This document shows, piece after piece, positions 562 to 56,371 of a stretch of 64,000 nt of DNA. A program made the translations under genes and the position numbers. Each line of letters begins with the position of its first letter. The first letter of the stretch is position 1. The DNA is from Lepraria neglecta (taxonomy: Eukaryota > Ascomycota > Lecanoromycetes > Lecanorales > Stereocaulaceae): positions 4,868,629 through 4,932,628 of the forward strand of contig CM065650.1 in the NCBI GenBank assembly GCA_033220425.1, read 5' to 3'. The notes under the pieces were generated by a model. That model was not told where the DNA came from and did not search any database. It worked only from the letters and a program-made list of their open reading frames with translations.

Positions 562-1016
562 TGTTACGATTAGGAAACATAATCAGGGATGCGCTCAAGG
601 AGCGTAGCGCCCGTCATGGTTCGAGTCGACGAATTAGTATCCGACTCGAATAGACCCTGAAGGCTTGGCATGCTAAGCGATGAGCGCAATGAGCGTAGTG
701 TAATCAAAGCGATCATAATGATAAGCGCAATGAGCGCAGTGTAATCTGTGCGATCAAGAATGCTTGGCATGGATTTCGTATATCTATATATATAGAGCAC
801 TACTTACTACTTGGAGCATCGTGCTTAACTTCCTATTCAATTGTTTACTATATACGATAGATCTCTTAGGCTAGGCACTAAATATATATTATCTAATCAT
901 ATACCAGACCCGCTTAGCATCACTTGAAGCCTGCTTTATACTCTTGCCCGGTTATACCTCTATCCCTATTAAGAATAATCTATATACGATACCAGCACGT
1001 AACGTGGTTTGTAACA
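562..1016 (+). repeat. 5' LTR, subfamily A (455 bp)
   Basis: Begins TGTTACGATTAGG and ends TTTGTAACA (TGTTA...TAACA inverted ends). It is followed by the same leader (ctttgagcacccttaagg) seen after the LTRs at 30368 and 35490. It matches 11185-11639 and 30368-30822 in length and sequence. It contains the repeated gagcg/gcgct-rich segment characteristic of this family. Confidence 0.9.
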
Positions 1017-2879
1017 CTTTGAGCACCCTTAAGGATGAGTACTATACTAAGAGACCCTAGGGTACCTACCCTAAGCTCCTCAGGAGGAGGAAGCGGATAG
1101 AGACGCCCTACTATTAACGAAGGACTTAGTAGGTATATCAAGATAGTCTAGCCCGACTTATACTATAGAGAAAGAGACAAGCTCGAGGGATAGCTATCCT
1201 AGATATTACTGTATCTAAAGTTCTAAGGGGACCTTATACCTATATAGAGATATCCTACCTTCGCTATTACTTACTTATATAGAAGAGCCCAAAAGTAGGT
1301 TAATCTATTCCTAAAGAAGTATATAGAAGATAATAATAAAGACGGTAAGATCAAATAGTAGATAGAAAGTATAGCAATGTTCAGGCTTAAAATCCGCCGT
1401 ATATTCGGACTATCTAACAAGGTTAATATAGTAATATAAACTATTTAATACTTAACTTAGAAGAAGTCTATATTAGAGTATTTAACTTAGTTTTAGTAGT
1501 ATATAGCTAAGACTAACTAGGATAATAATATATTAATAACTATATACCGAAGAGGTCTAAAGGATAATATTAAGGACAAACTTATAAGGTTAGAGACTAT
1601 TCTTAATACCCTTAATAAACTAATCGAAGAAGTAATTAAAATTAATAATAAGCTATTCGAAAGGACTATAGAAAAGAGATATAACAGAGGAGTTAGCGGT
1701 ATAGAATACTTAAGCTTTTTCGCTAAATCGAAGAGCTACTATCTAGATTATAGAGAGAATAACCCCTACGGACTAAGGCTAATAGAACTGGACTTTACGG
1801 AGAAAAAAGGTAAGAGGCCTTATAAAGGGCCGCCTAGGGGCAAGAAGCAGTAAGGGGGCAAGAAATACTTACGTATTATAGCTATAGTAAACCGGGCTAC
1901 TTTACTAGAGATTACAAGTTGAAAAATATAGTATATTAACTATAACTAAACGTACTAGAGAAAGTATAAACCTAGGATAATATAGACGGTACGCCTAAGG
2001 AGATTCTACTAGTATAGGAAGAAGTTGAAGAAGATATTAGTTCCTAGTATAATAGGATAATATAAGAAGAACTTGATAAAGAATCCGAAAACGGCGATAA
2101 CGACTTTACGAGGAGGTTTAATGCTGATGTTAGGGAAAGATATTGAATAGATATTAGAAACCTAAATATTAGAGATAGTAGTAAGACTTAGAGAGATTCT
2201 AAGTCGGATAAGGATAATAAACTAGACCTAGAATAGAAAGAAGCCCTTAGCACGTTAGAAGCTGAATAGGAAGAAATATAACTACTAAGGGAACTGATAC
2301 CTATATCTACTATATCTAAGGAAAAGAAGAAAGAGGACTCTAAGGAATCATAATAGGAAGAAGAAGAACCGGATTACTAACTAGATCGAAACTACCGAGG
2401 ACACAAAGAAGTACTATAGGAAGAGTACGCTACACTCTATTATATATAGTATAGGACGCTAAGGAATATCAAGAAGGGACTAATAAGGGTACCTTACTAT
2501 AGATATAGCTTCTATTATAACTACAGAAGGAATAAATATCTATAGTACCTCGTAACTAAAAGGATCTACTAGTTCTTCCTAGGAAATAATATAGGTTAGT
2601 TAGAGCGCGTTAAGAAAGAAATAATATACTATCTATACGCGGAAAAGTGCTATCTTAAGGAATAGTACGCCTATTTATATAATAACTATACGGAATATAA
2701 GCAAGCAAAATCTGAAGTAGGATTCCTACTCCTACTACCGAAGTAGATAGAATCTATAGCAGGATTTCTATAGGGAAAAGAGTAATCCTTTATAGCAGGG
2801 GTAGCTATAAGGAGATCAATATGTTAACCCCCAAACAATATCTGTGTTCCGCGCAATACAATATATATATAAAGATACC
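1017..2879 (+). pseudogene. Gypsy gag region with mutated zinc knuckle
   Basis: This is the 5' leader followed by a Gag-like frame. Around 1540-1860 the frame matches the 36415-36735 copy (Y-R-R-G-L-K-D-N-I-K-D motif, then a K-R-P-Y-K-G-P basic stretch). At 1874-1918 the zinc knuckle reads YYSYSKPGYFTRDYK. This is a C-x2-C-x4-H-x4-C knuckle in which the Cys codons and the His codon have become Tyr codons, the change expected from RIP. An acidic, Glu/Asp-rich linker follows to about 2400. Many TAG/TAA codons interrupt the frame, so no Gag is made. Confidence 0.75.
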
Positions 2880-5838
2880 GGTAATTATTAATAGATAGCG
2901 GACCGTTACGATAATAGATTCTAGAGCTACTAGAAATTTTATTTTATAAGACTTAGTACGGATAACTAAAATACTAACTTAAAAAAATTATAATAGTATA
3001 ACCTCTAGATAGCCGATAGGTTAATACTATTAATAGGAAAGGTAGACGAAGAAATACTTTTATTACCTATTATAATTCGACGCTACTATAAGGAGATTAT
3101 CTTTAACGTCATTAGGATAGCTACCTATTATATAATTTTAGGAATACTTTAGTTAAAGAAGTATAACCCAATAATCAATTAGACTCGAGGAGTACTCAAG
3201 ATGGATTAATCCGGTAATATTACCAGGATTATACCTATATATTAGCAGCGTTTAATAGTAGATAAGAAGTTAAACCGAAGACTAGTCGAGGTATATATTA
3301 CCTTAGCTTCGTATAAGGACGGTACTAAAGAGTAGTCCGACTCTATAGTTACTAGTAGAGATTAGTAGGATAATAAAGTGAGAGTTAAGGGAGGAACTAA
3401 TATACCCTCTATCCCTTAGGAGTATAATAAGTAGGTATACTTATTCGAGGAAAAGACGAATACAGAAGTATTACCTAAATATCAGCTATAGGATTATAAG
3501 ATCGAACTCAAACCTGGTAAGCAACTAACATTTAGACCTATTTACGTATTATTAGAAAAGGAACTTAAAGTACTTTGCGGGTATATTAACGAGAACCTCA
3601 AAAAAGGATTTATTCAAGAATCTAAATTACTAGTAGGTTATCCTATCCTCTTCGTACTAAAAAAGGATAGAAGCTTAAGACTATACGTCGACTATCGAAA
3701 GTTAAACGATATTATAATCAAAAATAGATATCCATTACTAAATATAGGAGAGCTATAGGATTGGCTTAGTAAAGCAAAGATATTTACTAAACTGGATCTT
3801 AGAGGTATATATAATTTAATTCGAATAAAAGAAGGCGAAGAATAGAAAACTACCTTCTAAACAAGATATAGCTACTATAAGTATCTAGTAATACCGTTTA
3901 GATTTACTAACGCACCAGTAACCTGCTAAGCACTTATTAATAATATCGTACGAGTATACTTAGATCGAATAGCGATAGCGTATCTCGATAATATACTAAT
4001 TTATTCTAAGAACAAGAAAGAATATATCGAGTATATATAGGATATCCTTAGATACCTATTATAAGTAAGACTTCTTCTTAAACCGGAAAAGTACGAATTC
4101 TATAAGGAATTAGTAGAATTTCTAGGATTTATAGTTAGTATAAGAGGTATTAGTATAAGCCTAGACAAGATTAAAGCTATAGCTGAATAGCCTATACTAC
4201 AAAACGTTAAAGTAGTATAAAGCTTCTTAGGATTTACTAACTTTAACAGGAAATTCATCGAAGGCTACTCCAAGAAAGTACTACCTTTAACGGATATTAC
4301 GAAGAAAGATATCGGATTTATATAGGGGAAAGACTAATAGAAAGTATTCGATACACTAAAAAAAGCATATACGGATCTACTAGTACTCGGTACCTTTTAA
4401 TCAAACAAGCCAGCTCGTATCGAAACGGATATATTAGATCTTGTAATTAGAGTATACCTATATCAAGAAAAAGATGGAAAGTAGTATCTAGTTACCTACT
4501 ATTTAAGGAAGATATTAGTAGTAGAATAGAACTATAATATACACAACAAGGAACTACTTACCGTAGTATATACATTATAAAACTAGCGAGTATACGCAGA
4601 GAGCTACTCGGATCTAACTATCTTTATAGATTATAAGAACCTTCTTAACTTTATAATAACAAAGGAGCTAAATAGGAGATAGGTTCGATAGTTAGAACTA
4701 TTAGGTCAATATAAATTCAAGATAACCTATACCCCAGGAAAAGATAATAGTCGAGTAGATACCCTTAGTAGGCAATCGGACTATATAGAGGAAAAGAATA
4801 TTATAGAATAACTAATCCTAAAGAAGGAAGCGGACGGATCACTAGTACCATACCAGGTATTAGTAGCGACCCTTCGTATATCAGGACCTGATATAACTAA
4901 TAGGATCGTAAAGGCCTATAATAATAATATATTCGCAACAAATCTATAGAAGGATTAATAGGATTTAGTATTACTTAAATACCAGGATAAGGCCTACTTA
5001 CCTGATATATACGTTAAAGAAGTAATCAGGGATTACCACGACGACCCTTTACAAGGTTACCCTAGAGTATCTAAGACTATAGAACTCCTAGGATAAGGAT
5101 ACGCGGCGCCGAAGCTTCGAGCGCGCGTCGAATAATATATTAAAGAATGTATCCAGTACTAGTAGAATAAAGCGGTACGATACGCCAAGTACGGATAAAT
5201 ATAATTTGCGCCTATACTAGAGTTACTATAGGATAATATTATAATAGACTTTATAGTTAAACTACTACCTTTAAGGGATCCAGCTACGTAAGATATCTTT
5301 AATTCAATTATGGTTATTATAGATAAACTGACGAAGTATATAATTATAATACCATTCAAGGAAACCTATAAAGTAGATTAGTTAGCCTTCGTACTACTTG
5401 ATAAACTAATAAGGGATTATAGTATACTAAAGTCAATAATATCTAATAGAGATAAGTTGTTTACTTCTAACTACTAGAAGACACTTATAGCAGTAATTAG
5501 AACCAAACTCTAGATATTAATAGTATATCATCCGCAAATAGACGGATATATAGAACAAGCAAACTAAACGATAGAAGTATATTTAAGATATTACATAAAC
5601 TAAAAATAAGATAACTAGGTCTTACTACTTCTAATAGTATAACTAGCGTATAATAACAAAAGGTTAGACACAACGGGACTAACCCTATTCTTTGCTAACT
5701 ACGGAAAGAATACTAATATATTTCTGTAACTAAGAGAAGGACCTAACGCAGAAAAAGCCCTAGTTAAAGCTAAAGAGCTAAAGAATTTATATAAGGATAT
5801 ATAGAGGTCTATTAAGGGCTCGAATAGTAGGTTAAAGG
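2880..5838 (+). pseudogene. Gypsy pol: protease, reverse transcriptase, RNase H, integrase (first part)
   Basis: A retroviral-type aspartic protease motif lies at 2917-2940, reading DSRATRNF where the B element at 37770 keeps DSGATRNF; the active-site Gly has become Arg. RT follows. The Y-R-K-L-N motif is near 3694 and the catalytic box at 3981-4007 reads YLDNILIYS, so one of the two catalytic Asp residues (YLDD) is now Asn. RNase H-like sequence with a TDILDLVI segment lies near 4425. The integrase starts with a degraded HHCC region near 5035, followed by an I-I-D-F-I-V-K core near 5240. The frame is cut at 5838 by a 742-bp foldback element and resumes at 6581. Numerous TAG codons fall at Trp/Gln positions. 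Confidence 0.85.
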
Positions 5839-6580
5839 TACAGCCCGGAAAGATATAGGATGGTATGGGATATTGGCTCTCTTACCCATCCCGGGGTATA
5901 GTATAGTATCAAGGTCTAAAATCCCATACCATTAGTAGGAGGTATGGAATCTCAATGGGATATCCCACGGTATGGGATATTGGTGGGATTATCTAATAGT
6001 ACGGGATATTTTCGGGATATCCCAGTGGCGGATAAGATAAGACCTATACTTAGAATTTGTAGTCATTATTCTAGTTATTAAAACTTCAAATATTTTTTTG
6101 AATATTCTATAATTCTGTCACGAAATAGGTAATGGATCGATGAGATCTAATTGGTTGGTTGGATAATATATATATGTGTTGATTATTGTCTATACGGGGT
6201 TGTAGAATCTACTTATATACGGGCCTCAGCCCTAAATGGCTTGGCAGTAGAGATAGTCTATGACAAATTCTATATTTCCTACTAGAATATCCTATATTAT
6301 AGAATATTCAAAAAAATATTTGAAGTTTTGATGACTAGAATGATGACTAGAAATTCTAAGTATAGGTCTTATCTTATCCGCTACTGGGATATCCCGAAAA
6401 TATCCCGTACCATTAGATAATCCCACTAATATCCCATATCGTGGGATATCCCATTGAGATCCCATCCTATATCTCCTAAAAGATATGGGATTTAGGATCT
6501 TCTAATCCTATCCTATACCGGAATCCCATACCCAACCCTTGGGATATCCTATGGGATATCCTATATCTTTCCGGGCTATA
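5839..6580. mobile_element. 742-bp foldback element (hAT-like MITE), copy 1
   Basis: The element starts TACAGCCCGGAAAG and ends CTTTCCGGGCTATA. It is flanked by perfect 8-bp direct repeats gttaaagg (5831-5838 and 6581-6588). The uninterrupted sequence exists at about 40690 in the other Gypsy element, which confirms the empty site. Long inverted arms of nearly 300 bp (with a divergent patch inside) surround a short centre. A second copy of exactly the same length lies at 34639-35380. No transposase is encoded. An 8-bp duplication suggests hAT mobilisation; P and Merlin families also make 8-9 bp duplications, so the superfamily is inferred. Confidence 0.88.
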
Positions 6581-7020
6581 GTTAAAGGAATAAGTTAATA
6601 AGAAAAGAAAGAATATTCCTCAGCTAAAAGAGGGGGATAAAGTATACCTCCTAATAAAAAATATAAAGATAACGAGACTAAGCAAGAAACTGGATTATAT
6701 TAAAGTTAGACCATTCTTAATTAAACGGATAAAGGGACTAGTTAACTATAAACTCTAACTACTACCTGACGCCAAGGTATATCCGGTATTCTATATCTCG
6801 CTCCTGGAGCTAGTAGACTCTAGTATACCTCTCTAAGAAATATTTCATTATAATATTAAGGAAGAAATAGAGTACGAGGTCAAGAGGATCCTAGATAGAA
6901 GGAATTAGTTCTATCTAGTTAAATAGAAAGGGTATAACGAAACAGAAAATACCTAGAAACCTTTTAGGAACCTTGCGGGGAACTATAGGGAATATCTACA
7001 AGAGTTCTATTAGAAATAAG
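6581..7020 (+). pseudogene. Gypsy integrase C-terminus with chromodomain
   Basis: Resumes the pol frame after the foldback element. At about 6865-7019 it reads a chromodomain: a YEVKRILDRRN start, then F-Y-L-V-K-(stop)-K-G-Y and N-x-E-N-T-(stop)-K-P. The stops sit where W-K-G-Y and T-W-E-P Trp codons are expected (TGG to TAG). The C-terminal chromodomain places the element in the chromovirus clade. Its last codons overlap the end of the antisense ORF described at 6964-7475. Confidence 0.8.
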
Positions 7021-7475
7021 AGAAGACCAGTTAAAGCTCTCAGGGCCCTCTAGGCCGGCGGGGAGGTCGAACTACTTAGAGCCAATATTGAATATCAGAC
7101 CGTCGGGGGTACCGGAAGGAAACTTTTAGTCCCTCTCTAGCTCCTCGATATTCTGTAACTCGCGCTTAACTAGCCTCTTCTCTTTATTTTAGACGAGGTT
7201 AAATTATAATTAAAGGCGTATAAGTTTCGTCTACGTTTCCTTTATTTCTAACTAAGTATCGTCGCGTACTTTTTTAATATAATATATTTCATTAATAGAT
7301 ATAACTAGGTCGTACTTCTTTCCTATAGTAATATAGTTAGAATAATAATCCGAGCGAGCATCTACTATATACTATTTATAGCTCTTTGTATAGAGGGTAT
7401 AAGGACGTATTACGAATCTAGATAATTTACTAGAAAGTTCTTTACGGCGAATAACGGGATCTTTAGATTAGATAG
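6964..7475 (-). pseudogene. Antisense ORF downstream of pol, copy 1 (subfamily B)
   Basis: On the minus strand, opposite to gag-pol, a frame of about 170 codons runs from near the 3' LTR back into the chromodomain coding end. It contains RRKELSSKLSRFVIRPYTLY, a KKYDLVISINEIYYIKK segment, a charged helical stretch with the heptad look of a coiled coil, then TPDGLIFNIGSK and a C-terminus ending P-Q-G-S-stop. In-frame stops are almost all TAG/TAA at Trp/Gln positions, as expected from RIP. The same frame is present at 10627-11105 and 41071-41573. I do not recognise the protein family. The start codon is not resolved. Confidence 0.6.
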
Positions 7476-7539
7476 TTCAATAGGGTAGTATAAAGGATGG
7501 ATAGTTTCTCGGGACGAGAAATCTGGAGGGGGGAGCTAG

Positions 7540-7959
7540 TATTAGAACCAGGAGGTTCTGACAGGACTATCCTAGAGGATATAGTACTATAGATAGGACT
7601 AGTAGCTGAAGCGATGAGCGCAACGAGCGCCGTGCGCTTATGGCGCTCAGAAATAATGAGCGCAATAAGCGCCGTGCGCTCATAACGCTTATAAAGAGCT
7701 TGGTAGGATTTCCTATTGCTATATATAGGAGTACTTGCTTACCACTTGGAGTATCGTGCTCAACTTCTGTTTTCATCTAGTACTTACTATATACGATAGA
7801 TCTCTTAGGCTAGGCACTAAATATATACATCATCCGATTATATACCAGACCCGCTTAGTATACACTTGAAGCCTGCCCTATACTCTTGCTCTATACACCT
7901 CTATCCCAGTGAGAATCAATCCAATAAACGGACTACCGCACGCAACGTGGTTCGTAACA
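7540..7959 (+). repeat. LTR, subfamily B (3' LTR of the inserted B element)
   Basis: Begins TATTAGAACCAGGAGG (from TGTTAGAACC) after a purine-rich tract (ggaggggggagctag) and ends TTCGTAACA. It is 420 bp against 409 bp for the B LTRs at 35490 and 41647, and shares their gcgatgagcgcaacgagcgc segment. It is followed directly by ctaacgtttagacc, the RT sequence of the surrounding A element. Confidence 0.87.
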
Positions 7960-10680
7960 CTAACGTTTAGACCTATTTACGCATTATTAGAAAAGGAACT
8001 TAAAGTACTTTATAGGTATATTAATAAGAACCTTAAAAAGGGATTTATTCGGGAATCTAAATTACTAGTAGATTACCTAATCCTCTTTATACTAAAAAAG
8101 GATAGAACTTTATAGCTATATATTAACTACCGAAAGTTGAACGATATTATAATCAAGAATAGATATCTATTACTAAATATAGGGGAGCTATAGGATCAGC
8201 TCGGCAAAGCAAAGATATTTACTAAATTAGATCTTAGAGGCGTATATAATCTAATTTGGATAAAAGAAGGCGAGGAATAGAAAACTACCTTCCGAATAAG
8301 ATATAGCTACTATAAGTATCTAGTAATACCGTTTAGACTTACTAACGCACTAGTAACCTGCCAAGCACTTATCAATAATATTATATAAGTATACTTAGAT
8401 CGAATAGCGATAGTATACCTCGATAATATACTAATTTACTCTAAAAACAAGAAAGAATATATTATATATATATAGGACGTCCTTAGATACCTATTACAGG
8501 TGAAACTTCTTCTTAAACTAGAAAAGTACGAATTCTATAAGGAATTAGTGGAATTTCTAGGATTTATAGTTAGTACGGAAGGCATTAGTATAAGCCTAGA
8601 AAAGATCAAAGCTATAGCTAAATGGCCTACGCTACAGGACATCAAAGTAGTACAAAGCTTCTTAGGGTTTACTAACTTTAACCGGAAGTTCATCGAAGGC
8701 TACTCTAAGAAGGTACTACTACTAACAGATATTATAAAGAAGGATATTAGGTTTATATAGGGGAAGGACTAATAGAAGTCGTTTAATACGCTAAAGTACT
8801 CTATACCTTTTAGGCTAATATACCGGCCTATATCGAAGTAGATGCCTCGGACCTCGTAATCGGAGTATGCCTATATCAGGAAAAAGATGGGAAATAGTAT
8901 CTAGTTACCTACTATTCAAGAAAGATATTAGTAGTAGAGTAGAATTACGATATACACGATAAGGAACTACTTACTGTGGTTTATATACTTTAGAACTAGC
9001 GAGTATATATAGAGAGCTACTCGGATCTAACTATCTTCACGGATTATAAGAACCTTCTTAACTTTATAATAATAAAAGAGTTAAATAGAAGATAGGTTCG
9101 ATAGTCGGAACTTCTAGGATAGTATAAGTTCAAGATAACCTATATCCTAGGGAAGGATAATAGTCGAGCAGACGCCCTTAGTAGGCGATTAGACTATATA
9201 GAAGGAAAGAATATTATAGAATAACTAATCCTAAAGAAAGAAGCGGACGGATTACTAGTACTATACTAGGTGCTAGCTACGACCCTCCGTATATTAGGAT
9301 CTAATATAACTAATAGGATCGTAAAGGCCTATAATAACGATATATTCGTAACAAACCTACGGAAGGATTAGCAGGATTCAGTATTACTTAAATACCAGGA
9401 TAAGATCTACTTACCTAATATATATATTGAGGAAGTAATTAGGGATTACCATAACGACCCTTTACAAGATTACCTAGGAGTCGCTAAAATAATAGAACTC
9501 CTAGGACGAGGATATATAGCGCCGAAGCTTCGGATATGTGTTAAACGATATATTAAGGAATATATCTAATACTAGTAGAATAAGTCTATACGATATGCCA
9601 AATATAGACAAATATAATTTGTACCGGTTCTAGAGTTACTATAGGATGACGTTATAATGGACTTTATAGTTAAACTACTACTATTAAAGGATCCGGCTAT
9701 ATAGGATACCTTTAACTCAATTATAGTTATTATAGACAAACTAACGAAGTATACTATTATAGTACCTTTTAAGGAAACCTATAAGATAGATTAGCTAGTA
9801 TTCATACTATTAGATAGGCTAATTAGGGACTATAGTATACTAAAGTCGATTATATTAGATAGAGACAAGCTCTTTATATTAAACTACTAGAAGATACTTA
9901 TTAGAGTAATTAGAATAAAACTAAGGATGTTAATAGTATACTATCTATAGATAGATAGATAAATAGAACGTGCGAATTAAATAATAGAAGTATACCTTAG
10001 GTACTATATTAACTAGAAACAAGATAACTAGGTATTACTACTTCTAATAGTATAACTGGCGTATAATAATAAGATATCAGATATAACGAAGTTGATACTA
10101 TTCTTTACTAATTATAGAAAGAATGTAAATATATTTCTATAACCTAGGGAGGGACTAAATATAGAAAAGGCCTTAGGAAAAGTAGAAGAGCTAAAGAATT
10201 TATATAAGGATATATAAAGGTCTATTAAAAGCTCGAATAGTAGACTAAAGGAATAAATTAATAAAAAGAGAAAGAATATTCCTTAGCTAAAAGAGGGGGA
10301 TAAAGTATACCTCCTAATAAAAAATATAAGAACGATAAGACTAAGTAAGAAACTAGATTATATTAAGGTTAGACTATTCTTAATTAAATAGGTAAAAGGG
10401 CCTATTAACTATAAACTTAAACTTCCCCCTAACGCCAAAGTATATCCGGTATTCTATATCTTACTCTTAGAGCTAGTAGACTCTAATATACCCTTATAGG
10501 AAATATTTTATTATAATATTAAAGAAGAAACGGAGTTCGAGGTCGAGAGGATTCTAAATCAAGTTAATTAGAAATATCTAGTTAAGTAGAAAGGATATAA
10601 CGATATCGAAAATATCTAGGAACTACTTAAGAATCTTGTAAACTGCTAGGAACTTCTATAAGAGTTCCGGGAGCGTTATA
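7960..10680 (+). pseudogene. Gypsy pol 3' part of the outer (A) element: RT to chromodomain
   Basis: Starts inside RT at the same point as 3528 in the other copy and continues through RNase H, integrase and chromodomain. The RT box at 8416-8427 reads YLDN. Two short frames (7909-8115 and 8500-8760) are surviving RT pieces; the second contains the gypsy segment VEFLGFIVSTEGI and the following [15 protein letters not shown] motif. A degraded chromodomain (EFEVERILNQVN, then K-Y-L-V-K-stop-K-G-Y) lies at about 10522-10680. The 5' half of this A element is the gag/protease sequence at 1017 onward. Confidence 0.85.
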
Positions 10681-11105
10681 GAAGGAGGACTAATCGATTC
10701 TATCTAGGAAATCGAACTGCTCGGACGAGACGTTGAATATTAGGTTATTAGGAGCGCTTGGAGCGGACCTCTAGTCTTCCTCTAACTCCTTAATGTTTTA
10801 TAACTTATATTCTACTATCTTCTTCTTTTCGTTCTCTATAGTATTAAGCTACGCCTAAAGACGTATCAACTTAGCCAGTGTATCCTTTACTTCTATACGC
10901 AGTTCATTACGCTACTTTTCGATATGACGCATCTCAAGAGGTAATACTACAAGGTCGTATTTTCTACCACTACCTATATAGTTAGAGTACCTGTTAGATT
11001 CTTCACCTATAAGATACTACTTGCCGCTAGCAACGCAACGAGAATACGGCCGTATCACAAATTCGGATAGCTCGCTAGCCAGCTCCGTTCGACGGACGGT
11101 TGGCT
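10627..11105 (-). pseudogene. Antisense ORF downstream of pol, copy 2 (subfamily A)
   Basis: Minus-strand frame of about 155 codons in the same position as copies 1 and 3. It reads RRTELASELSEFVIRPYSR, then SNYIGSGRKYDLVVLPLEM, a charged helical segment K-D-T-L-A-K-L-I-R-L ... E-N-E-K-K-K-I-V-E-Y-K-L, and APNNLIFNVSSEQFDFL. Compared with the B copies the protein is clearly homologous along its length although many residues differ. Such divergence with a preserved frame and length suggests selection on the protein before RIP. In-frame stops are TAG/TAA only. The function is unknown. Confidence 0.65.
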
Positions 11106-11184
11106 TATTTGAACATTTAGTACAACGAGGTAGTATAAAGGATAGATGGTTTCTCAGGACGAGAAATCTGGGAGAGGGAGCTAA

Positions 11185-11639
11185 TATTACGATCAGGAAA
11201 TATAATCAGGGATACGCTCAAGGAGCGTAGTGCCCGTTATGGTTCAAGTCGACGAATTAGTATCCGACTCGGATAGACCCTGAAGGCTTGGTATACTAAG
11301 CGGTAAGCGCAATGAGCGTAGTACGATCAAAGCGATCATGATGATAAGCGCAATGAGCGCAGTGCGATCAGTGCGATCAAGAATGCTTGGCATGGATTTC
11401 GTATATCTATATATGCGGAGCACTGCTTACCACTTGGAGCATCGTGCTCAACTTCCTATTCAATTATTTACTATATACGATAGATCTCTTAGGCTAGGCA
11501 CTGAATATATATCATCTAATTATATACCAGACCCGCTTAGCATCACTTGAAGCCTACTTTATACTCTTGCCTGGTTATACCTCTATCCCTATTGAGAATA
11601 ATCTATATACGACACTAGCACGCAACGTGGTTCGTAACA
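11185..11639 (+). repeat. 3' LTR, subfamily A (455 bp)
   Basis: Begins TATTACGATCAGG (TG to TA), ends TTCGTAACA, and is preceded by a purine-rich tract (gggagagggagcta). Same length as 562-1016. The following tctgg matches the tctag before the 5' LTR except for one transition. Confidence 0.9.
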
Positions 11640-11848
11640 TCTGGCTAATTTTCTAACTTTATCTAGTACCGTTTAGATTCTAGGTTCCTGAATCATTTAT
11701 TCTATAAATGCTACTAGGGCTTATAATACTTCTTAGAGAGTGTTTAAGGGAGGTTTCTATCTATTAGTAATATAGTTTAACCCGGTATTTGCTGCTTGCC
11801 GTAGCATGATTGTATACTCCTTATAGTCTATAGGCATTTGGTCCTATA
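11640..11848 (-). pseudogene. LINE (Tad-like) ORF1, upstream part
   Basis: The minus-strand frame runs toward the Gypsy 3' LTR and reads, among others, V-R-K-L-A-R at its end. It joins in frame with E-I-T-T-R-D-N-A-I-D-E-K-L-T-I-I-K-N on the other side of the Gypsy complex (near 560-490). It therefore carries the N-terminal side of the ORF1 pseudogene listed at 1-561. It is cut on the other side by the LTR beginning at 11849. Confidence 0.45.
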
Positions 11849-33130: not shown

Positions 33131-34638
33131 TAGTATATATAGTACTAGATATATTAACTGCGGACCTTTAAAAACAGCTTTAGTATAACTAGTTAACTCA
33201 AGTAGACCATCAAACGGAGCCCCGGTACGTCTATTTGCTACTAGGATTAGTTCCGAAGCACGATAGGGGTTAGAGACGTATTCATAACCTCTTATTTCTA
33301 TACGGCAGCTTAGTTAATAATAGTATACCTTACAATTAGGGCGCTCTAGAATATATAACATACGATAATACCGTGGATACACTACTATAACAAGGTCCAG
33401 GGGCTTAATTTATTAAGCGAGACCTGAAAGACGCCTTTTGTCATATTCTAGTAGCTATATTAGACTAGTAGCTACTAGGTTTCTACTATAATGGTTTCTA
33501 CTGGAAAGAACACTATCTACCCTTTGGTTTATATATAGTACTATTCCTCTTTAATCTGTTTACGAAGGCGATTAACTAGATTATAACCATACTATTACTA
33601 TAGGCTATAGTATTATACTATTTGGACGACTTCTTCGCTATTCTGGTACTATAAGCCGATACTATCGTATATAGCTATTAATTCGATCAAGTATATAATG
33701 AATTAGGCCTGTTAGTTAACTATTCAAAGGATGCGATAGGTATAAAAGCCGACTTTATGGGAATTGAATTCGATAGTATCCTTATATAGGTACGACTCCC
33801 TCTAGATAAGCTAGATAGGGCAAGAATTATAGCGCAAGGCCTCCTTAAAAGGCCTATAATCCTATATTCGGAGCTCGAGTTAGTAGTCGGTTTCCTATTA
33901 TTTACTACCAAAATTATAGTTCCAGGAAGGGCCTTCTTAAGGCGACTTTTTGACGTAATTCGGAGGCTAGTAGCTATCCTATATATCACCGTAGCTATAA
34001 GGGCTGATCTACTATAGTAGTATACCTTCTTAAAGGACTAGAATGGTCGCTACAGTGGGACTGTGGGTTAGTGTGTCTCATGATCAGATGCGGTTTCAGC
34101 CATGCGCCATGACTATGGGCCATAGCGAGAGATCCGTGCTTCCTGAGAGCACTATTTGTATGAGCATCCCACCAGCAGTTGGCTCTTCAGTCGAGTTCAT
34201 CTCTTTCAGAGCCATAACAGTTCTTTCCCGCCCACCCGCACCTTATACATAGCCTATATATAGCCTATCTACACTCCAGGTCTATGCCGCCTAGGCATGG
34301 GAGTTTTCTAGCGCTGGGGCACCTGTTGTAGCCTTTCTAGGCCTGCTAGCCCTGGCGTTAGACCGCCCAAGCATCTATTTACATATCCACTTGTGCCGGT
34401 GTGTATAGCTTCAGGAGTGAGAACACTAACCTTAAACTACTACGTCACGTCGTTAGTTAACTATTATAGCATATATAGACTGACGCCTCGGGGACGCTTG
34501 GTATAGAGGGCTACATTCTTAATTACCTAGCCCATTTGTACTCGGTCCAGGACGTCTTTAGCATACTAATTACTATACGCTATCTTCGTAAAGATATATA
34601 ATTCAAAGAAATAAAGGCTATTCTTCACGCGATTCAGC
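33131..34638 (+). pseudogene. DIRS-like reverse transcriptase and RNase H (first part)
   Basis: RT motifs in order: GLVPKHDRG near 33240 with R-R-I-H-N-L; EYITYDNTVDTLL near 33350; FIKRDLKDAF near 33410; H-Y-L-P-F-G-L near 33510; Y-L-D-D at 33619-33630 with both Asp intact; ADFMGIEFDSIL near 33750; PGRAFLRRLFDVIRRLVAIL near 33920. The RNase H motif H-I-stop-T-D-A-S-G-T-L-G-I is at 34470-34505, with the stop in place of Trp. An insertion at 34047-34430 separates RT from RNase H, and the foldback element cuts the frame at 34638. Confidence 0.78.
34047..34430. mobile_element. Short unmutated insertion sharing sequence with the DIRS left end
   Basis: The insert separates D-W-N-G from the RNase H start and is clearly less RIP-mutated than its host. 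Its first ~210 bp match the DIRS left end at 31550-31760 (same order, here with C/G where the other has T/A). The motif ggttagtgt (34066-34074) and the end acactaacc (34423-34431) are inverted. It may be a solo terminal repeat of the same or a related family. No target duplication was found. Confidence 0.5.
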
Positions 34639-35380
34639 TATAGCCCGGAAAGATATGGGATGGTATGGGATATTGGCTCTCTTACCCATCCCGGGGTATA
34701 GTATAGTATCAAGGTCTGAAATCCCATACCATTAGTAGGAGGTATGGGATCTCAATGGGATATCCCACGGTATGGGATATTGGTGGGATTATCTAATAGT
34801 ACGGGATATTTTCGGGATATCCCAGTGGCGGATAAGATAAGACCTATACTTAGAATTTCTAGTCATTATTCTAGTCATCAAAACTTCAAATATTTTTTTG
34901 AATATTCTATAATTCTATTACGAAATAGGTGATGGATCGATGAGATCTAATTGGTTGGTTGGATAATATATATATGTGTTGATTATTGTCTATACGGAGT
35001 TGCAGAATCTACTTATATACGGGCCTCAGCCCTAAATGGCTTGGCAGTAGAGATGGTCTATAATAAATTCTATATTTCCTACTAGAATATCCTATATTAT
35101 AGAATATTCAAAAAAATATTTGAAGTTTTGATGACTAGAATGATGACTAGAAATTCTAAGTATAGGTCTTATCTTATCCGCCACTGGGATATCCCGAAAA
35201 TATCCCGTACCATTAGATAATCCCACTAATATCCCATATCGTGGGATATCCTATTGAGATCCCATCCTATATCTCCTAAAAGATATGGGATTTAGGATCT
35301 TCTAATCCCATCCCATACCGGAATCCCATACCTAACCCTTGGGATATCCTATGGGATATCCCATATCTTTCCGGGCTATA
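34639..35380. mobile_element. 742-bp foldback element (hAT-like MITE), copy 2
   Basis: Runs TATAGCCCGGAAAGATATGG to CCATATCTTTCCGGGCTATA, flanked by perfect 8-bp repeats gattcagc (34631-34638 and 35381-35388). Almost identical to 5839-6580, so both insertions are recent relative to their hosts. It is rich in gggatatccc and tatgggat motifs. Confidence 0.9.
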
Positions 35381-35489
35381 GATTCAGCTATAGTTAGAAC
35401 GACTCCGGGGATCTAAATTAACCCTTTATTACGATAATAATACCTATATCTATAGGCTATATAAATCCTCGATCTATAGACTAGCTATA

Positions 35490-35898
35490 TGTTAGAACCA
35501 GTGGTTCTGATAGAACTGTCCTGTAGGACATAGTACTATAGACAGGACTAGTAGCTGAAGCGATGAGCGCAACGAGCGCCGTGCGCTCATGGCGCTCAAG
35601 AATAATAAGCGCAATGAGCACCGTGCGCTCATAACGCTCATGAAGGCTTGGTATAGATTTCGTATGTCTATATATACAGAGCACTGCTCACCACTTAGAG
35701 CATCGTGCTCAACTTGCTATTCAATTGTTTACTACATGCGATAGATCTCTTAGGCTAGGCACTAAACATATATCATCTAATCATATACCAGACCCGCTTA
35801 GCATCACTTGAAGCCTGCTTTATACTCTTGCCCTGTGCACCTCCATCCTAGTGAGAATCAATCCACAGAACCGTCGGTACGCAACACGGTTCGTAACA
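35490..35898 (+). repeat. 5' LTR, subfamily B (409 bp)
   Basis: TGTTAGAACCAGTGGTTCTG ... TTCGTAACA. It begins with a small palindrome (agaaccagtggttct). Confidence 0.92.
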
Positions 35899-36179
35899 CT
35901 TTGAGCACCCTCAAGGATGAGTGCTACACCAAGAGACCCTAGGGCACCTACCCCAAGCTCCTTAGGAGGAGGAAGCGGATAGAGACGCCCTACTATTAAC
36001 GAAGGACTTAGCAAGTATATCAAGATAGCCCAGCCCGACTTATACTATAGAGAAAGAGATAAGCTCGAGGGATGGCTATCCCAGGTATATTTATATCTGA
36101 AGTTCCAAGGGGACTTGATACCTATTCAACGATATCCTACCTTCGCTATTACTTATTTATATAGAAGAGCCTAAAAATA

Positions 36180-36804
36180 GGTAGATCCGTTCCTAAAGAA
36201 GTATATAGAAGATAACGACGAAGACGGCGAAATTAAATCATAGATAGAGAGTATAGCTATATTTAGACTCGAAATCCGCCGTATATTCAGTCCGTTAAAC
36301 GAAGTTAATATAGTAATATAAACTATTTAGTACTTGACTTAAAAGAAGTCTATATCGGAATATTCGACTTAGTTTTAGTAGTATATAGTAAAGACTAACT
36401 AGGATAATAATATATTGATAACTATATACCGAAGAGGTCTTAAGGACAATATTAAAGACAAGCTTATAAGGTTAGGGATTATTATTAATACCCTAGATAA
36501 ACTAATCGAAGAAGTAATCGAAATTAACGACAAGTTATTTAAAAGGACTATAGAGAAAAGGTATAACGGAGGAGTTAGTAGAATAGGACGCTCGAGCTTT
36601 TTTACTAAATCGAAGAGCTATTACCTAGGATATAAAGGAGAATGCGACCCTTACGGATATACGCTAATAGAACTAGACTTCACGGAAAGGAAGGGCAAGA
36701 GGCCTTATAAAGGGCCAGCCAGGGGCAAGAAGTAGTAAAGGGGTAAGAAAATACTGACGTATTATAGCTATAGCAAACCGGGCTACTTTACTAGAGACTA
36801 CAAG
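36180..36804 (+). pseudogene. Gypsy B gag with mutated zinc knuckle
   Basis: A surviving open stretch at 36415-36735 (106 codons) reads ITIYRRGLKDNIKDKLIRLG, ends with K-R-P-Y-K-G-P-A-R-G-K-K, and is followed by a stop. The knuckle at 36760-36804 reads YYSYSKPGYFTRDYK, with Tyr in place of the metal-binding Cys/His residues. Confidence 0.8.
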
Positions 36805-37739
36805 TCGAAAAACATAGTATATCAATCGCAGCTAAATATACTAGAGAAAGTATACACCTAGGACGATATAGACGACACGCCTAAGGAGATTCTACTACTA
36901 TAGGATAAAGTTAAAGATATTAACTCCTAGTATAATAGGATAATATAAGAATAATATAACTACGAATCCGAAAGCGAGGACGAACTTATAGAGGACGTTA
37001 ACTTATAAGCTAAGAAAGACTTAGATAGTAAAGATAGTAGTAGTACTTAGGAAGAATCCGAGCAGGATTAGGAAGAAGGGATAGACCCAGAGTAGGAAGA
37101 AGCCCTTAGTACGTTAGAAGCTAAGTAGGAAAATATATAACTACTAAGGGAATCAATACCTAGATCTACTATATCTAAGGAAAAAGAAGACTCTAAGGAA
37201 TCACGACAGGATAATAAGAAACTAGATTATTAACAAGATCGGAATCATCGAGGATATAAAGAGTTACTATAGGAAGAATATACTACGCTGTACTATATAT
37301 AGTATAGTACGCTAAGAAGTTATAGAAAGGGACTAGTAAAGAAGGCTTACTATAGCTAAGACTTCTACTATAACTATAAGAGAAATAAATACGAATTTCA
37401 TCTAGTAATAAAAAGGCTTTACTAGTTCTTCCTAGGAAATAATATAGATTAGTTAGAATATATCAAGAAAGAAATAATATACTATCTATATATAGAGAAA
37501 TACTATCTAAAAGAATAGTACGCCTATTTATATAATAACTATATAGAATATAAGAAAGAAAAATCCGAAGTAGGATTCCTACTCCTAATATATAAGTAGA
37601 TAGAATCTATATCCGGATTTCTGCAGGGAAAAGAGTAATCCCTTATAGCAGGGGTAGCCATAAGGAGATTAATATATTAACCCCCAAATAATATCTGTAT
37701 TCCGCGCAATATAATACATATATAAAGATACTAATAATT

Positions 37740-40700
37740 GTTAACGGATAGCGGACCGTTGTGATAATAGATTCTGGAGCTACTAGGAATTTCATTTCAC
37801 GAGACTTAGTACGAATAACTAGAATACTAACTCGAAAGAAGCTATACTAGTATAACCTTTAGATGGCTAATAGGTTAATACTATCAACAGGAAAGGTAGA
37901 CGAAGAGATACTTTCGTTACCTATTATAATTTAGCGCTACTATAAGGAGATTACCTTTAATATTATTAGGATAGCTACCTATTATATAATTTTAGGAATA
38001 CCTTGGTTAAAGAAGTATAACCTAATAATCGATTAGGCTCAAGGAGTACTCAAGATAGATTAATCCGGCAATATTACCAGGATTATACCTACGTATCAGC
38101 AGCGTTTAATAGTAGATAAGAAGTCGAACCGAAGGATAGTTAAGGTATATATTACCTTAGCTTCGTATAAGGACGGTACTAAAAGGTAGTCTAACTCTAT
38201 AGTTACTAGTAAAGATTAGTAGGATAATAAAGTAAGAGATAAGGGAGGAACTAATATACTCTCTATCCCTCAGGAATATAGTAAATAGGCGTACTTATTC
38301 AAGGAAGAGATAAATATAGAAGTATTGCCTAAGTATTAGCTATAGGATTATAAGATCGAACTCGAACCTGGCAAGTAACCAACGTTTAGATCTATTTATA
38401 TATTATTAGAAAAGGAACTTAAAGTACTTCGCGGGTATATCGACGAGAACCTCAAAAAGGGATTTATTCGGGAATCTAAATTACTAGTAGGTTATTCTAT
38501 CCTTTTTATACTAAAGAAGGACAGAAGCTTATAACTATATATCGACTATCGAAAGTTAAACGACATTATAATTAAGAATAGATATCTATTACTAAATATA
38601 GGAGAGCTATAGGATCGGCTTAGTAAAGCAAAGATATTTACTAAACTAGATCTTAGAGGTGTATATAACCTAATTTGGATAAAAGAAGGCGAGGAATAGA
38701 AAACTACCTTCCGAACGAGATATAGCCACTATAAGTATCTAGTAATACCGTTTAGACTTACTAATACACTAGTAACCTACTAAGCACTTATTAATAATAT
38801 TATATAAGTATACTTAGATCGAACAGCGATAGCGTACCTCGATAATATACTAATTTATTCTAAGAATAAGAAAGAATATATCGAGTATATATAGAATGTC
38901 CTTAGATACCTATTATAAGTAAAACTTCTTCTTAAACCAGAAAAGTGCGAATTTTATCGACAGTCGGTAGAATTCCTAGGATTTATAGTTAGTATAGAAG
39001 GTATTAGTATAAGCCTAGAGAAGATTAAGGCTATAGCGGAATAGCCTATACTACAGAACGTCAAAGCAGTACAAAGCTTCTTAGGATTTGCCAACTTTAA
39101 CAGGAAGTTTATTAAGGGCTACTCTAAGAAGGTACTACTACTAATAGATATTATAAGGAAAGATATCGGGTTTATATAGGGAAAAGACTAATAGAAATCA
39201 TTCGACACATTAAAGAAAGTATATACGGATCTACTAGTACTCTATACCTTTTAAGTAAACGAGCTAGCTTGTATCGAAACAGATATATTAGATCTAGTAA
39301 TCGGAGTATACCTATATTAAATGAAAGACCAAAAATAGTATCTAGTTACCTACTATTCAAGGAAGATATTAGTAGTAGAATAGAATTATAATATATACGA
39401 TAAGGAACTACTTGCCGTAGTATATATATTATAGAACTAGCGAGTATACGCAGAAAGCTACTCGGATCTAACTATCTTTATAGATTATAAGAACCTTCTT
39501 AACTTTATAATAATAAAAGAGTTAAATAGAAGATAAGTTCGATAGTTAGAACTATTGGGTTAATATAAGTTCAAGATAACCTATACCCTAGGAAAAGATA
39601 ATAGTCGAGTAGACGCCCTTAGTAGGTATTTAGACTATATAGAAGAAAAGAATATTATAGAATGACTAATCCTAAAGAAAGAAGCGGACGGATCGCTAGT
39701 ACTATACCAGGTATTAGCTACAACCCTTTGTATATCAGGACCTAATATAACTAATAGGATCGTAAAGGCCTACCATAATGATATATTCGTAATAAACCTA
39801 CGGAAGGATCAATAGGATTCAGTATTACTCAAATATTAAAGACAAGACCTACTTACCTAATATATACGTTGAAGAAGTAATTAGGGATTACTATAACGAC
39901 CCTTTATAAGGTTACCCTAGAGTATCTAAGACTATAGAACTCCTAGGACAGGGATACGCGGCGCCGAAGCTTCGGGCACGCGTTGAATAATATATTAAAG
40001 AATATATCTAGTGCCAGTAGAATAAGGCGGTATAATATACTAAATACGGGCAAATATAGTTTACTCCTATACTAGAGTCACTATAGGATAATATTATAAT
40101 AGACTTTATAGTTAAGTTACTACTATCTAAGGATCCAGCTACGCAGGACACCTTCGACTTAATTATAGTCATTATAGATAAACTAACGAAGTATATAATC
40201 ATAATACTATTCAAAGAAACCTACAAAGTAGATTAGTTAGCCTTCGTACTACTCGACAAACTAATAAGAGATTATAGTATACCGAAGTCGATAATATCCG
40301 ATAGAGATAAGCTATTTACGTCCAACTACTGGAGAATACTAATAGCAGTAATTAGAACTAAACTCTAGATATCGATAGTATATTATCTATAAACTAATAG
40401 GTAAATAGAACGTGCTAATTAAATAATAGAAGTATACCTGAGATATTATATGAACTAGAAGTAAGATAACTAGGTTTCACTGCTTCTAATAGTATAGTTA
40501 GCGTATAACGACAAGAGGTTAGATATAATAGGCCTAATACCATTCTTTACTAACTATAGAAAGAATATAAATATATTTCTATAACTAAGGGAAGGGCCTA
40601 ATATAGAAAAAGCCTTAGTTAAGGCTAAAGAGCTTAAGAATTTATATAAGGATATATAAAGGTCTATCGAAAGCTTAAATAAGAAGTTAAAGGGATAAGT

Positions 40701-41127
40701 TAATAAGAAAAGAAAGAATATTCCTTAGCTAAAAGAGAGGGATAAAGTATACCTCCTAATAAAAAAAATATAAGGATAACGAGACTAAGCAAGAAACTAG
40801 ATTATATTAAGGTTAGACTATTCTTAATTAAACGGATAAGAGGACCGGTTAACTATAAACTCTAACTTCCACCTGATACTAAGGTATATCTAATATTCTA
40901 TATCTTACTCCTAGAGCTAGCAGACTCTAGTATACCTCTCTAAGAAATATTTCATTATAACGTTAAGGAAGAAACAGAGTACGAGGTTAAAAGGATCCTA
41001 GATAGGAGGAATTAGTTCTACCTAGTTAAATAGAAAGGGTACGACGAAATAGAAAGTACCTGGGAACCTCTTAGGAACCTTGCGGGGAACTATAGGGGAT
41101 ATCTCTAAGAGTTCTATCAGAAATAAG
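37740..41127 (+). pseudogene. Gypsy B pol: protease to chromodomain
   Basis: Protease D-S-G-A-T-R-N-F begins at 37770 (active site kept). RT Y-R-K-L-N is near 38555 and the catalytic box YLDN is at 38835-38846. RNase H is near 39290. The integrase HHCC zone is near 39885, with core I-I-D-F-I-V-K near 40100 and Y-S-I-P-K-S-I-I-S-D-R-D near 40275. The chromodomain at about 40972-41127 reads EYEVKRILDRRN, Y-L-V-K-stop-K-G-Y, E-S-T-W-E-P-L; W in the last motif survives. Numerous TAG/TAA codons occur. Confidence 0.86.
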
Positions 41128-41573
41128 AGAGGACTAGTCGAAGCTCTCAGGGCCTTCCAGGCCGGGGGGGAGGTTGAACTACTCGGAACCGACGTTGAAT
41201 ATTAGATCGTCAGGGGTACCAGAAGGAAGCTCCTTATCCTTCTCCAATTCCTCTATATTCTATAATTCGCGCTTAATTAACTTCTTCTCTTCGTTTTAGA
41301 CAAGGTTAAATTATAATTAAAGGCGTATAAGTTTCGCCTACATTTCCTTTATCTCCGACTACGTATTATTACGTACTTTCTTAATACGATATATCTTATT
41401 AATAGATACGACCAGGTCGTACTTCTTGCCCGTAGTAATACAGTTAGAATAATAATCCGAACGCGCACTAACTATATACTACTTATACCCCTTCGTATAC
41501 AAAGTATAAGGACGTATTACAAATATAGATAATTTACTAGAGAGTTCTTTGCGACGAACGACGGGGTCCTTAG
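41071..41573 (-). pseudogene. Antisense ORF downstream of pol, copy 3 (subfamily B)
   Basis: The minus-strand frame reads RRKELSSKLSIFVIRPYTLY, then S-D-Y-Y-S-N, TTGKKYDLVVSINKIYRIKK, a charged helical stretch (N-E-E-K-K-L-I-K-R-E-L) and TPDDLIFNVGSE, ending P-Q-G-S-stop inside the chromodomain coding end. About 168 codons with only TAG/TAA interruptions. Homologous to copies 1 and 2. Confidence 0.65.
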
Positions 41574-41646
41574 ATTAGGTAATTCGACGGGGTAGTATAA
41601 AGGATAGATAGTTTCTTAGGACAAGAAATCTGGAGGAGGGAGCTAG

Positions 41647-42055
41647 TATTAGAACTAGTGGTTCTGACAGAACTATCCTGTAGGATATAGTACTATAGAC
41701 AGGACTAGTAGCTGAAGCGATGAGCGCAACGAGCGCCGTGCGCTCATGGCGCTCAAGAATAATAAGCGCAATGAGCACCGTGCGCTCATAACGCTCATGA
41801 AGGCTTGGTATAGATTTCGTATGTCTATATATACAGAGCACTGCTCACCACTTAGAGCATCGTGCTCAACTTGCTATTCAATTGTTTACTACATGCGATA
41901 GATCTCTTAGGCTAGGCACTGAATATATATCATCTGATCATATACCAGACCCGCTTAGCATCACTTGAAGCCTGCTTCATACTCTTGCCCTATACACCTC
42001 CATCCCAGTGAGAATCAATCCACAGAACCGTCGGTACGCAACACGGTTCGTAACA
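41647..42055 (+). repeat. 3' LTR, subfamily B (409 bp)
   Basis: TATTAGAACTAGTGG ... TTCGTAACA, pair of 35490-35898, followed by the duplicated target ctata. Confidence 0.92.
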
Positions 42056-42370
42056 CTATAGCCCTACTAAGGGATATAGCTATGCTTATAGCTAGATATA
42101 ATATCTACTTGATTCCGGAATAGATCCCAATAGGGGCCAACCAACTGGCTAATAACCTCTCGCGATTCCGGTATCGAAAAATCGCTGACAGATACCCTTA
42201 GCTAGGTTACCTAGCTATATCTCCGCTGTGTCAGGGCGGGACCTACTATAATCTTGGTATAGTCAGACCGTATTACTACGAGAAGCCGCTTGACTCCTAT
42301 AGTAGGGGTTAGTAACGAAAACCCGAAAAACGTATACTATACTAACGCAGTTATATATTACCTATTATAT
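42056..42370 (+). pseudogene. DIRS-like RNase H, last part
   Basis: Reads LLRDIAMLIARYNIYLIPE, stop, I-P-I-G-A-N-Q-L-A-N-N-L-S-R-F-R-Y. This is the A-D-x-L-S-R end of retroelement RNase H. It completes the frame left at 35388-35489. Confidence 0.65.
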
Positions 42371-42825: not shown

Positions 42826-43570
42826 TAGGTAGCCGGCAAACTACTGCCGGGGCTACCCTTTACCTAGGATATCCAGGTAAAGGTCCTCAGCGGATTCTAC
42901 ACTGGCTATTAACTTAGATCCCTCTCTATCTCGCTAAGGAGTGGTCCGTTTTTCAATCCGAGGACGGAATCAGAATAGCCTTGATTAGCCAGTGCTAGAG
43001 GTGGCCGGCAAACTATTACCGGGGTCACCCTTTATCTAGGATATATAGGTAATGGTCCTCAGCGGATACTACACTGGCTATTAACTTAGATCCCTCTCTA
43101 TCTAGCCAAGGAGTAGTCCGTTTTTCAATCCGAGGACGGAATCAGAATAGCCTTAATCAGATAGTGCTAGAAGTGGCCGGTAAACTACTACCAGGGCTAC
43201 CCTTTATCTAGGATATCCAGGTAAAGGTCCTTAGCGGATTCTGCACTAGCTATTAACTTAGATCCCTCTCTATCTAGCCAAGGAGTGGTCTGTATTTCAA
43301 TCCGAGGACAGAATCAGAATAGCCTTAATCAGATAGTGCTAGAAGTAGCCGGTAAACTACTGCCAGGGTTACCCTTTACCTATACTATTAAGGTAAAGGT
43401 CCTCAGCGGATTCGGAACTGGCTATTAACTTAGATCCCTCTCTATCTCGCCAGGGAGTGGTCCGTTTTTCAATCCGAGGACGGAATCAGAATAGCCTCGA
43501 TTAGACGGTGCCAGAGGTGGCCGGCAAACCATTGCCGGGTCTACCCTTTACCTAATATATCAAGGCAAAG
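42826..43570. repeat. 172-bp satellite array A (five units)
   Basis: The landmark gcc-ggc/t-aaac occurs at 42832, 43004, 43176, 43348 and 43520, an exact 172-bp period. Each unit carries three short inverted repeats: ccggcaaa...ttgccgg, cctttacct...aggtaaagg, and ccgt...acgg around tttttcaatccgagg. The last unit switches to a different 3' sequence shared with array B. Confidence 0.95.
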
Positions 43571-44000
43571 GTTCAAAGCAGAATCAGCTAGCTATCAACT
43601 TCAATCCTACTTGATTTATTAAGGAGCTATTTAGTTTTTATCCTGAAAATTAGAATAGCCGGAGTTAGGTAGTACTACAGGATTTTTGTGTAATATATAC
43701 CCGCCCCGCGGTTACCTCGATATAAGCTTCTTTTCAAATCTATTCTCTTCTTCTTAATACTCTCTATCTTCTTACTAAATCCTTTAAGCCCTTTCTATAT
43801 TAGTGAATCAGTTTCTTCGACCCTCTATAGCTCTACCGCCACCTACTACCTAGACTATAGCGACCGGCGCTAATATAGTCGGCACCTAGTTGAGCGACCT
43901 GAGATTAAGCGGCGCCCCTTAGTATAGCCCTACTCCAGGCCTGGCTGGACCGCCGGCCATCTGGCCGCAGGTAGCTTTATATACCAGCGAGGCTCAGAGG
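43571..44000. repeat. Conserved spacer after array A
   Basis: Almost the same sequence follows array B (54540-54990), including tattaaggagctatttagtt, a pyrimidine-rich cttcttaatactctc part and aggcctggctggaccgccgg. No coding frame is supported. Confidence 0.8.

Positions 44001-55950: not shown

Positions 55951-55990
<40 letters not shown>

Positions 55991-56326: not shown

Positions 56327-56371
<45 letters not shown>

Follow-up and report, generated by a model that had tools for sequence, protein, structure and literature searches.

An antisense gene with a Zn2Cys6-like cysteine cluster in a RIP-inactivated Ty3/Gypsy family of Lepraria neglecta

The antisense gene and its copies

The stretch of DNA analysed here (the window, 64 kb in length) is the terminal stretch of contig C5 in the Lepraria neglecta genome, which comprises 42.0 Mb in 11 contigs. 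It carries copies of a long terminal repeat (LTR) retrotransposon family that, judged from its sequence, is a fungal Ty3/Gypsy family inactivated by repeat-induced point mutation (RIP). Between pol and the 3' LTR of these elements lies an additional gene of about 175 codons in antisense orientation. Three copies occur in the window, all on the minus strand: A1 (7491-6964, 528 nt), B1 (11136-10627, 510 nt), and A2 (41598-41071, 528 nt), each given from codon 1, which is ATA in all of them, to the TAA stop codon, and each broken. A preliminary description of the window had already placed an antisense open reading frame (ORF) at these positions and on this strand, with ends that fell 5 to 10 codons short of codon 1.

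A genome search with P0001, an intact relative of the encoded protein (see below), scored 150 of 417 candidates and returned 163 matches, so that the copy number is a lower bound. After dropping six duplicates from 113 loci (110 fetched, plus the three of the window), 107 unique copies were aligned; loci L001-L009, which repeat window copies or represent the same loci with other bounds, were excluded. Codon 1 is ATG in 34 copies, ATA in 72, and GCG in one, ATA being the RIP product of ATG. The stop at codon 176 is found in 105 of the 107 copies, and the flanks are kept on both the pol side (104/107) and the side of the polypurine tract and LTR edge (105/107). The copies contain 714 internal stops (408 TAG, 284 TAA, and 22 TGA). 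For 676 of these, the same column holds a suitable source codon (CAA, CAG, TGG, or CGA) in some other copy, and for 38 it does not. The earlier statement that all interruptions are RIP-type TAG or TAA is thus nearly right.

In A1, the end of the gene overlaps the 3' end of pol (6964..7091, plus strand), where the pol frame could stop at 7017-7019 or at 7089-7091. These two stop columns are present in 78% and 89% of the copies and correspond to an overlap of about 12 or about 42 codons; codons 1-133 lie outside the overlap with either stop. The overlap had been described as involving chromodomain codons: its location in pol was correct, while a chromodomain-like stretch is readable in the pol frame by eye only, with no Pfam match in the pieces tested. 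Among the listed genomic matches to P0001, 14 (e.g., C3:3836515-3836790) span only residues 1 to about 82-97, with an open frame of about 210 aa. Their sequences could perhaps represent a diverged subfamily that has kept the cysteine cluster described below with another C-terminal part.

Selection on the antisense frame

Selection was measured on transversions only, since RIP produces transitions only, using 28 copy pairs with non-overlapping tree paths. In codons 1-133, transversions were distributed as 123, 86, and 254 at codon positions 1, 2, and 3 (p 1e-22), and the ratio of nonsynonymous to synonymous changes relative to expectation (N/S) was 0.31 in the antisense frame versus 0.53-1.80 in the five other frames: the other two frames of the antisense strand gave 1.30 and 1.80, and the three of the sense strand gave 1.08, 1.73, and 0.53. 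We read the sense-frame value of 0.53 as the shadow of shared antisense third positions and not as a sense gene. The estimate for the antisense frame was stable over ten choices of pairs (0.28-0.36) and in bootstrap samples (0.20-0.38). When only distant pairs were used, the mean rose to 0.40 (9-11 pairs) and 0.49 (2-3 pairs), a rise that saturation would explain. Past the stop, a control region gave an N/S of 1.54.

The antisense frame is therefore real, protein-coding, and under purifying selection. This agrees with the protein-level conservation claimed in the preliminary description, the N/S outside the overlap being far below 1. The transversion counts from codons that pol does not overlap lead us to reject an accidental or overlap-driven ORF; a function as antisense RNA only fails to account for the codon-level constraint, which also rules out a functionless passenger gene.

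Relatives in other fungi

Searching 5.8 billion proteins with one copy, in which stops were replaced by X, revealed three relatives. The best of these, P0001, is an intact protein of 174 aa with 52% identity over 99% of the query. Its best match in the present genome is only 55-56% identical, and P0001 is hence not a copy from this genome. Intact relatives lacking the frame had been proposed as an argument against its conservation; the frame is present in P0001 and in P0004-P0006, which are likewise full length. Profile searches yielded 30 and then 125 relatives, 120 of which were listed in the last search, and 124 proteins from all searches were analysed.

Named hosts among these relatives were the Lecanoromycetes Lasallia pustulata and Stereocaulon virgatum, and the Sordariomycetes Cytospora mali and Pyricularia oryzae. 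A truncated UniRef label, Zn(2)-C6 fungal-type domain, is attached to the Lasallia protein; the Stereocaulon protein, of 66 aa, is without the cluster, and the Cytospora and Pyricularia proteins match at E 4e-7. No Botrytis name was found among the listed relatives, most of which are nameless, and the viral_contigs and genome_contigs databases gave no relatives with the patterns used. Nor is this genome alone in having the gene next to an LTR, since the upstream parts of P0009 and P0031 read through the polypurine tract in almost the way seen in the copies here. In P0052, the upstream read-through forms an N-terminal extension that shows a repeated peptide of the W-A-P-W-A-L type, a hint that the LTR adjoining the gene in another element contains tandem repeats.

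A Zn2Cys6-like cysteine cluster

The N/S fell to 0.15 in codons 28-62, a region that includes a cluster of six cysteine positions (codons 31-60; minus strand, 7312..7401 in A1, 10957-11046 in B1, and 41419-41508 in A2). These six codons are TGT, TGC, TAT, or TAC, encoding Cys or Tyr, in all 107 copies, as confirmed by a protein alignment, and belong to a set of 15 columns, out of 133, in which every copy has either the same residue or a RIP product of it. Less damaged copies have Cys at the positions where the window copies have Tyr; all six Cys are intact in seven copies and all six are Tyr in 15. The cluster was missed in the first reading of the window because RIP had turned cysteines into tyrosines: the F-V-I-R-P-Y, K-Y-D-L-V, and L-I-F-N-V motifs noticed at that time are all readable, the first two being damaged Cys motifs with Tyr in place of Cys.

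Zn2Cys6 proteins are characterized by the spacing C-x2-C-x6-C-x(5-12)-C-x2-C-x(6-8)-C. The spacing of the antisense protein, C-x2-C-x6-C-x8-C-x2-C-x6-C, falls within this pattern. A full set of six Cys is present in 52 of the 124 relatives, another 11 show either Cys or Tyr at every one of the positions, and 61 are without the cluster pattern; those inspected among the latter start inside or after the cluster. The 2-6-8-2-6 spacing was found in 42 of the 52 six-Cys relatives, the other ten differing by 1-2 residues in a spacer under a greedy pattern.

Comparisons with known Zn2Cys6 proteins gave weak but uniform matches. The Zn_clus profile (PF00172) matched nine of the 52 six-Cys relatives at E 0.1 or better, the best at E 0.0033. 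A profile built from 19 natural cluster-plus-coil segments retrieved PUT3 as the top PDB sequence (E 0.007); the search of PDB sequences with P0001 alone returned nothing relevant, and the full-length profile placed PUT3 at E 1.6 among unrelated matches. In Foldseek searches of the PDB, the P0001 model matched 21 chains and the model of the Lasallia protein (P0026) matched 19; judged from the chain names, 19 of the former and at least 18 of the latter belong to Zn2Cys6 proteins, with no match significant singly. The predicted clusters superposed on 1pyi, 2erg, and 1cld at 1.4-1.7 A over 32-35 residues, PPR1 giving 1.4 A over 35 residues. A fold search of BFVD produced 13 matches, none of them significant. 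The antisense protein resembles the regulators Gal4, PUT3, PPR1, and LEU3 in its six-Cys spacing, two short helices, a long helix after the cluster, and an acidic tail. In contrast to them, it remains below the PF00172 cut-off, has a less basic loop, and is encoded antisense on a retrotransposon; typical Zn2Cys6 regulators are also far longer.

Predicted coiled coil, basic arm, and acidic tail

Downstream of the cluster, codons 66-127 (7111..7296 in A1, minus strand) form a long helix in the P0001 model, and the long helix block has a predicted local distance difference test score (pLDDT) of about 89-98 in the models. The distance from the last Cys to a conserved NIxELE motif was 54, 61, 68, or 75 residues in 46 of the 51 measurable relatives, four of the remainder having 55 and one 65; 73 of the 124 database proteins had no measurable motif. 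Three of the 107 copies were likewise dropped from this count, and in the 104 measurable ones the distance was 54 (95 copies), 61 (one), or 68 (eight), thus changing in steps of seven throughout. The heptad pattern was read from these whole-heptad length steps. Such changes are what a selected coiled coil would show, bearing in mind that the counts are not independent events.

The arm upstream of the cluster varies freely in length (28, 30, 31, 32, 33, 39, and 42 residues among the shorter starts), and its net charge is positive in 18 of 19 cases. The tail that follows NIxELE has a net negative charge in 92 of 94 proteins (mean -5.9) and contains 10.6% F, W, and Y, the 30 of 124 proteins without a measurable motif being excluded. 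Acidic, aromatic tails of this kind occur in activators, and this composition suggests a role in activation.

Half-site units in the LTRs

The LTRs contain units of the form GRNNGC n GRNNGC n GCNNYC n GCNNYC (n 2-4), which form tandem arrays of at most three, between the LTR edge and a TATA-like box, with hexamers that vary by subfamily. In the window, such units were located in the A-type LTR adjoining A1 (7540..7959; units 7616-7690, box at 7719), the B-type LTR adjoining B1 (11185..11639; units 11305-11378, box at 11407), the B-type LTR at the left end (562..1016; units 682-755, box at 784), and the 5' LTR (35490..35898; units 35565-35639, box at 35668) and 3' LTR (41647..42055; units 41722-41796, box at 41825) of the A2 element, all given on the plus strand. 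In all five, 28 bp separate the end of the last unit from the box that follows, this unit being matched only at three substitutions in three of them. Within the 64 kb, the unit occurs four times at one substitution or fewer, always in LTRs, and seven times at two or fewer, six of them in LTRs.

At two substitutions or fewer, the unit was found in 72 of the 107 copies, versus a mean of 0.65 and a maximum of 3 in 20 shuffles and none of 107 in the ORF body; this count is a description and not a blind test, because the pattern was drawn from these very LTRs. Over the 37 copies with a TATA-like box, the median distance from the last unit to the box was 28 bp (quartiles 28 and 69). Half-sites were identical in 32 of 55 units for the direct pair and in 23 of 55 for the inverted pair. 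Gal4 recognizes the half-site CGG; the candidate half-sites here are GRNNGC. The half-site hexamers and the cluster loop co-vary by subfamily, in a manner inseparable from ancestry. In the 3' LTR, the units stand between the TATA-like box and the antisense start codon.

Proposed function and alternative explanations

On this evidence, the antisense gene probably, although by no means certainly, encodes a dimeric Gal4-like regulator that would bind zinc and DNA and act on the LTR of its own element. Its predicted layout would combine a basic arm, a Zn2Cys6-like binuclear cluster, a long coiled coil for dimerization, and a disordered, acidic, aromatic-rich tail. As the start codon is located 48 bp from the 3' LTR, the antisense transcript should have its start within that LTR or close to it. 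The dimer would most likely bind the units of four half-sites, which stop 28 bp short of the TATA-like box, and thereby raise transcription of the element's own RNA and perhaps that of its own antisense gene; activation is the sign favoured by the tail. Such an arrangement suggests an element equipped with a switch of its own. Extended to fungal Gypsy elements across the Pezizomycotina, the same proposal, namely an antisense Zn2Cys6 coiled-coil dimer activator and matching LTR half-site arrays that diversify together between subfamilies, has in our view slightly less than an even chance of being correct. Two results weigh against parts of the main reading. No relative reached the PF00172 gathering cut-off of 21 bits (best 17.9 bits, P0005), and the part that overlaps pol had an N/S of 1.10 and no bias among codon positions (30/31/39), so that in this genome the antisense tail shows no constraint there, which speaks against selection on the tail. 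The lack of antisense constraint in the overlap is also what an accidental frame, kept open by sense codons, composition, or an antisense regulatory RNA, would predict, yet the codon-position bias and low N/S outside the overlap and the intact relatives elsewhere with the same six Cys make such an accident barely credible.

Assuming that the protein is selected, its target and sign of action may differ from those proposed. The units could be host-factor sites or functionless tandem repeats made by slippage, which is compatible with any of the other alternatives and which we hold to be unlikely, if not strongly so: 9-bp repeats can come from slippage, the pattern was derived from these very LTRs, and the half-sites on the left frequently do not match those on the right letter for letter, but subfamilies whose hexamers differ still keep both the direct and the inverted class of half-sites, and the window LTRs share one distance to the TATA-like box. 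It is rather doubtful that a Zn2Cys6-like coiled-coil protein acts elsewhere than on the LTR, either on RNA or protein partners (in packaging, nuclear import of the integration complex, or the choice of insertion sites) or on host genes. A basic arm together with an acidic aromatic tail is in keeping with a transcription regulator, and in each of the five window LTRs the units lie the same distance ahead of the TATA-like box, whereas the loop before the third Cys is less basic than that of PUT3, the co-variation of cluster and half-sites cannot be separated from ancestry, and such roles have been proposed for plant antisense ORFs (PMC7264820). Improbable to a somewhat greater degree is a repressor or latency factor like the HBZ protein of human T-cell leukaemia virus type 1 (HTLV-1), which would damp sense transcription from the 5' LTR and keep the element quiet. 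HBZ has the same layout (PMC8156140), with an antisense gene, a start in the 3' LTR, and a DNA-binding-type domain followed by a coiled coil; the acidic aromatic tail of the present protein suggests activation, the sign itself being unreadable from sequence.

Host element and other features of the window

Element A2 (35490-42055, plus strand) is a single insertion, flanked by a CTATA target-site duplication (35485-35489 and 42056-42060) read by eye, and its LTRs share 98% identity over the 300 nt compared. A pol piece (9372..9566, plus strand) matched the Pfam domain Integrase_H2C2 (PF17921, E 2.2e-06), and SH3_Tf2-1 was matched in a piece of genome copy L071. LTRs, a 5-bp target duplication, and integrase domains thus place the family within Ty3/Gypsy. 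Pfam gave no match in the four other pieces tested, including two window pieces expected in reverse transcriptase, so that the gene order is without proof by domain matches. The ratio (CA+TG)/(AC+GT) was 0.31-0.36 in three element stretches versus 0.57-0.92 in three other stretches, and this low ratio is the mark of RIP; TA/AT, at about 1.5 in the elements versus 0.94-1.49 elsewhere, was a poorer separator.

The region 562-11639 looks like a single composite insertion, with a B-type LTR, an A-type internal region, an A-type LTR, a partial B-type pol, and a B-type LTR in succession. Its flanking bases are TCTAG (557-561) and TCTGG (11640-11644), a difference of the RIP type, and by its order of parts the region looks like a recombinant element with two antisense genes. 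Two copies of an element of about 730 bp (5836-6570 and 34636-35378; 96% identity over 300 nt) have 170-nt inverted arms 182 nt apart, and one of them lies inside the pol of A1. A 172-bp tandem repeat forms three arrays of 3.7-4.3 copies each (42827-43572, 53828-54540, and 61339-61975), each standing shortly before a block in which the plus strand is nearly devoid of C while G is kept (44800-47700, 55900-57000, and 62000-64000; GC skew of 0.87-0.97 in five 1-kb bins). These blocks are at odds with RIP, because they are strand-asymmetric, whereas RIP would strike both strands. One possibility is deamination of resected single-stranded subtelomeric DNA, as the blocks are located at the contig end, where, in the case of a true chromosome end, the 3' overhang would be formed by the plus strand.

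Known systems and significance

The preliminary description knew of no named fungal family with such a gene, but the layout has a precedent. The Gypsy element Boty of Botrytis has an extra antisense gene, brtn, between pol and the 3' LTR, as cited in PMC7264820, PMC4227169, and PMC8365987. No zinc cluster is named in the passages citing BRTN. A CHROMO domain is also reported in Boty gag-pol (PMC4227169); the candidate for one in the present family is the chromodomain-like stretch mentioned above. The remark that plant Retand-type elements carry antisense ORFs was well founded: according to PMC11963269 and PMC7264820, Retand, Grande, and RIRE2 have an antisense ORF between pol and the 3' LTR that is kept across species and encodes a TRP28 domain with predicted DNA binding. 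These plant ORFs differ in their domain (PF04195), in their non-chromovirus lineage, and in a pol-to-LTR region of 2.9-6.6 kb. HTLV-1 HBZ, according to PMC8156140, is similarly an antisense retroelement protein that acts on LTR transcription; it is a basic leucine zipper protein and not a zinc-cluster protein, and the analogy implies no homology. A 2020 review (PMC7264820) regarded the function of antisense accessory genes as unknown and found no clear protein similarity beyond SMC-like and transposase-28 domains. In the literature searched, which left most subscription papers, including that on brtn, outside, no retrotransposon antisense gene described as Zn2Cys6 was found.

The present analysis tentatively ties an antisense accessory gene to a well-understood DNA-binding fold and to candidate targets in the same element, which makes its function directly testable. 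It also illustrates how RIP hides genes, as the conversion of Cys to Tyr and of Gln to stop masks the family from standard domain searches. If the proposed function is true, this would be, to our knowledge, the first retroelement family to make use of the Zn2Cys6 fold of fungi. HTLV-1 HBZ and the TRP28 ORFs of plants would then be joined by a third antisense gene of DNA-binding type beside a 3' LTR, independent of both. A mobile element would be home to a fungal transcription-factor fold, from which new regulators, and binding sites dispersed through fungal genomes, could arise.
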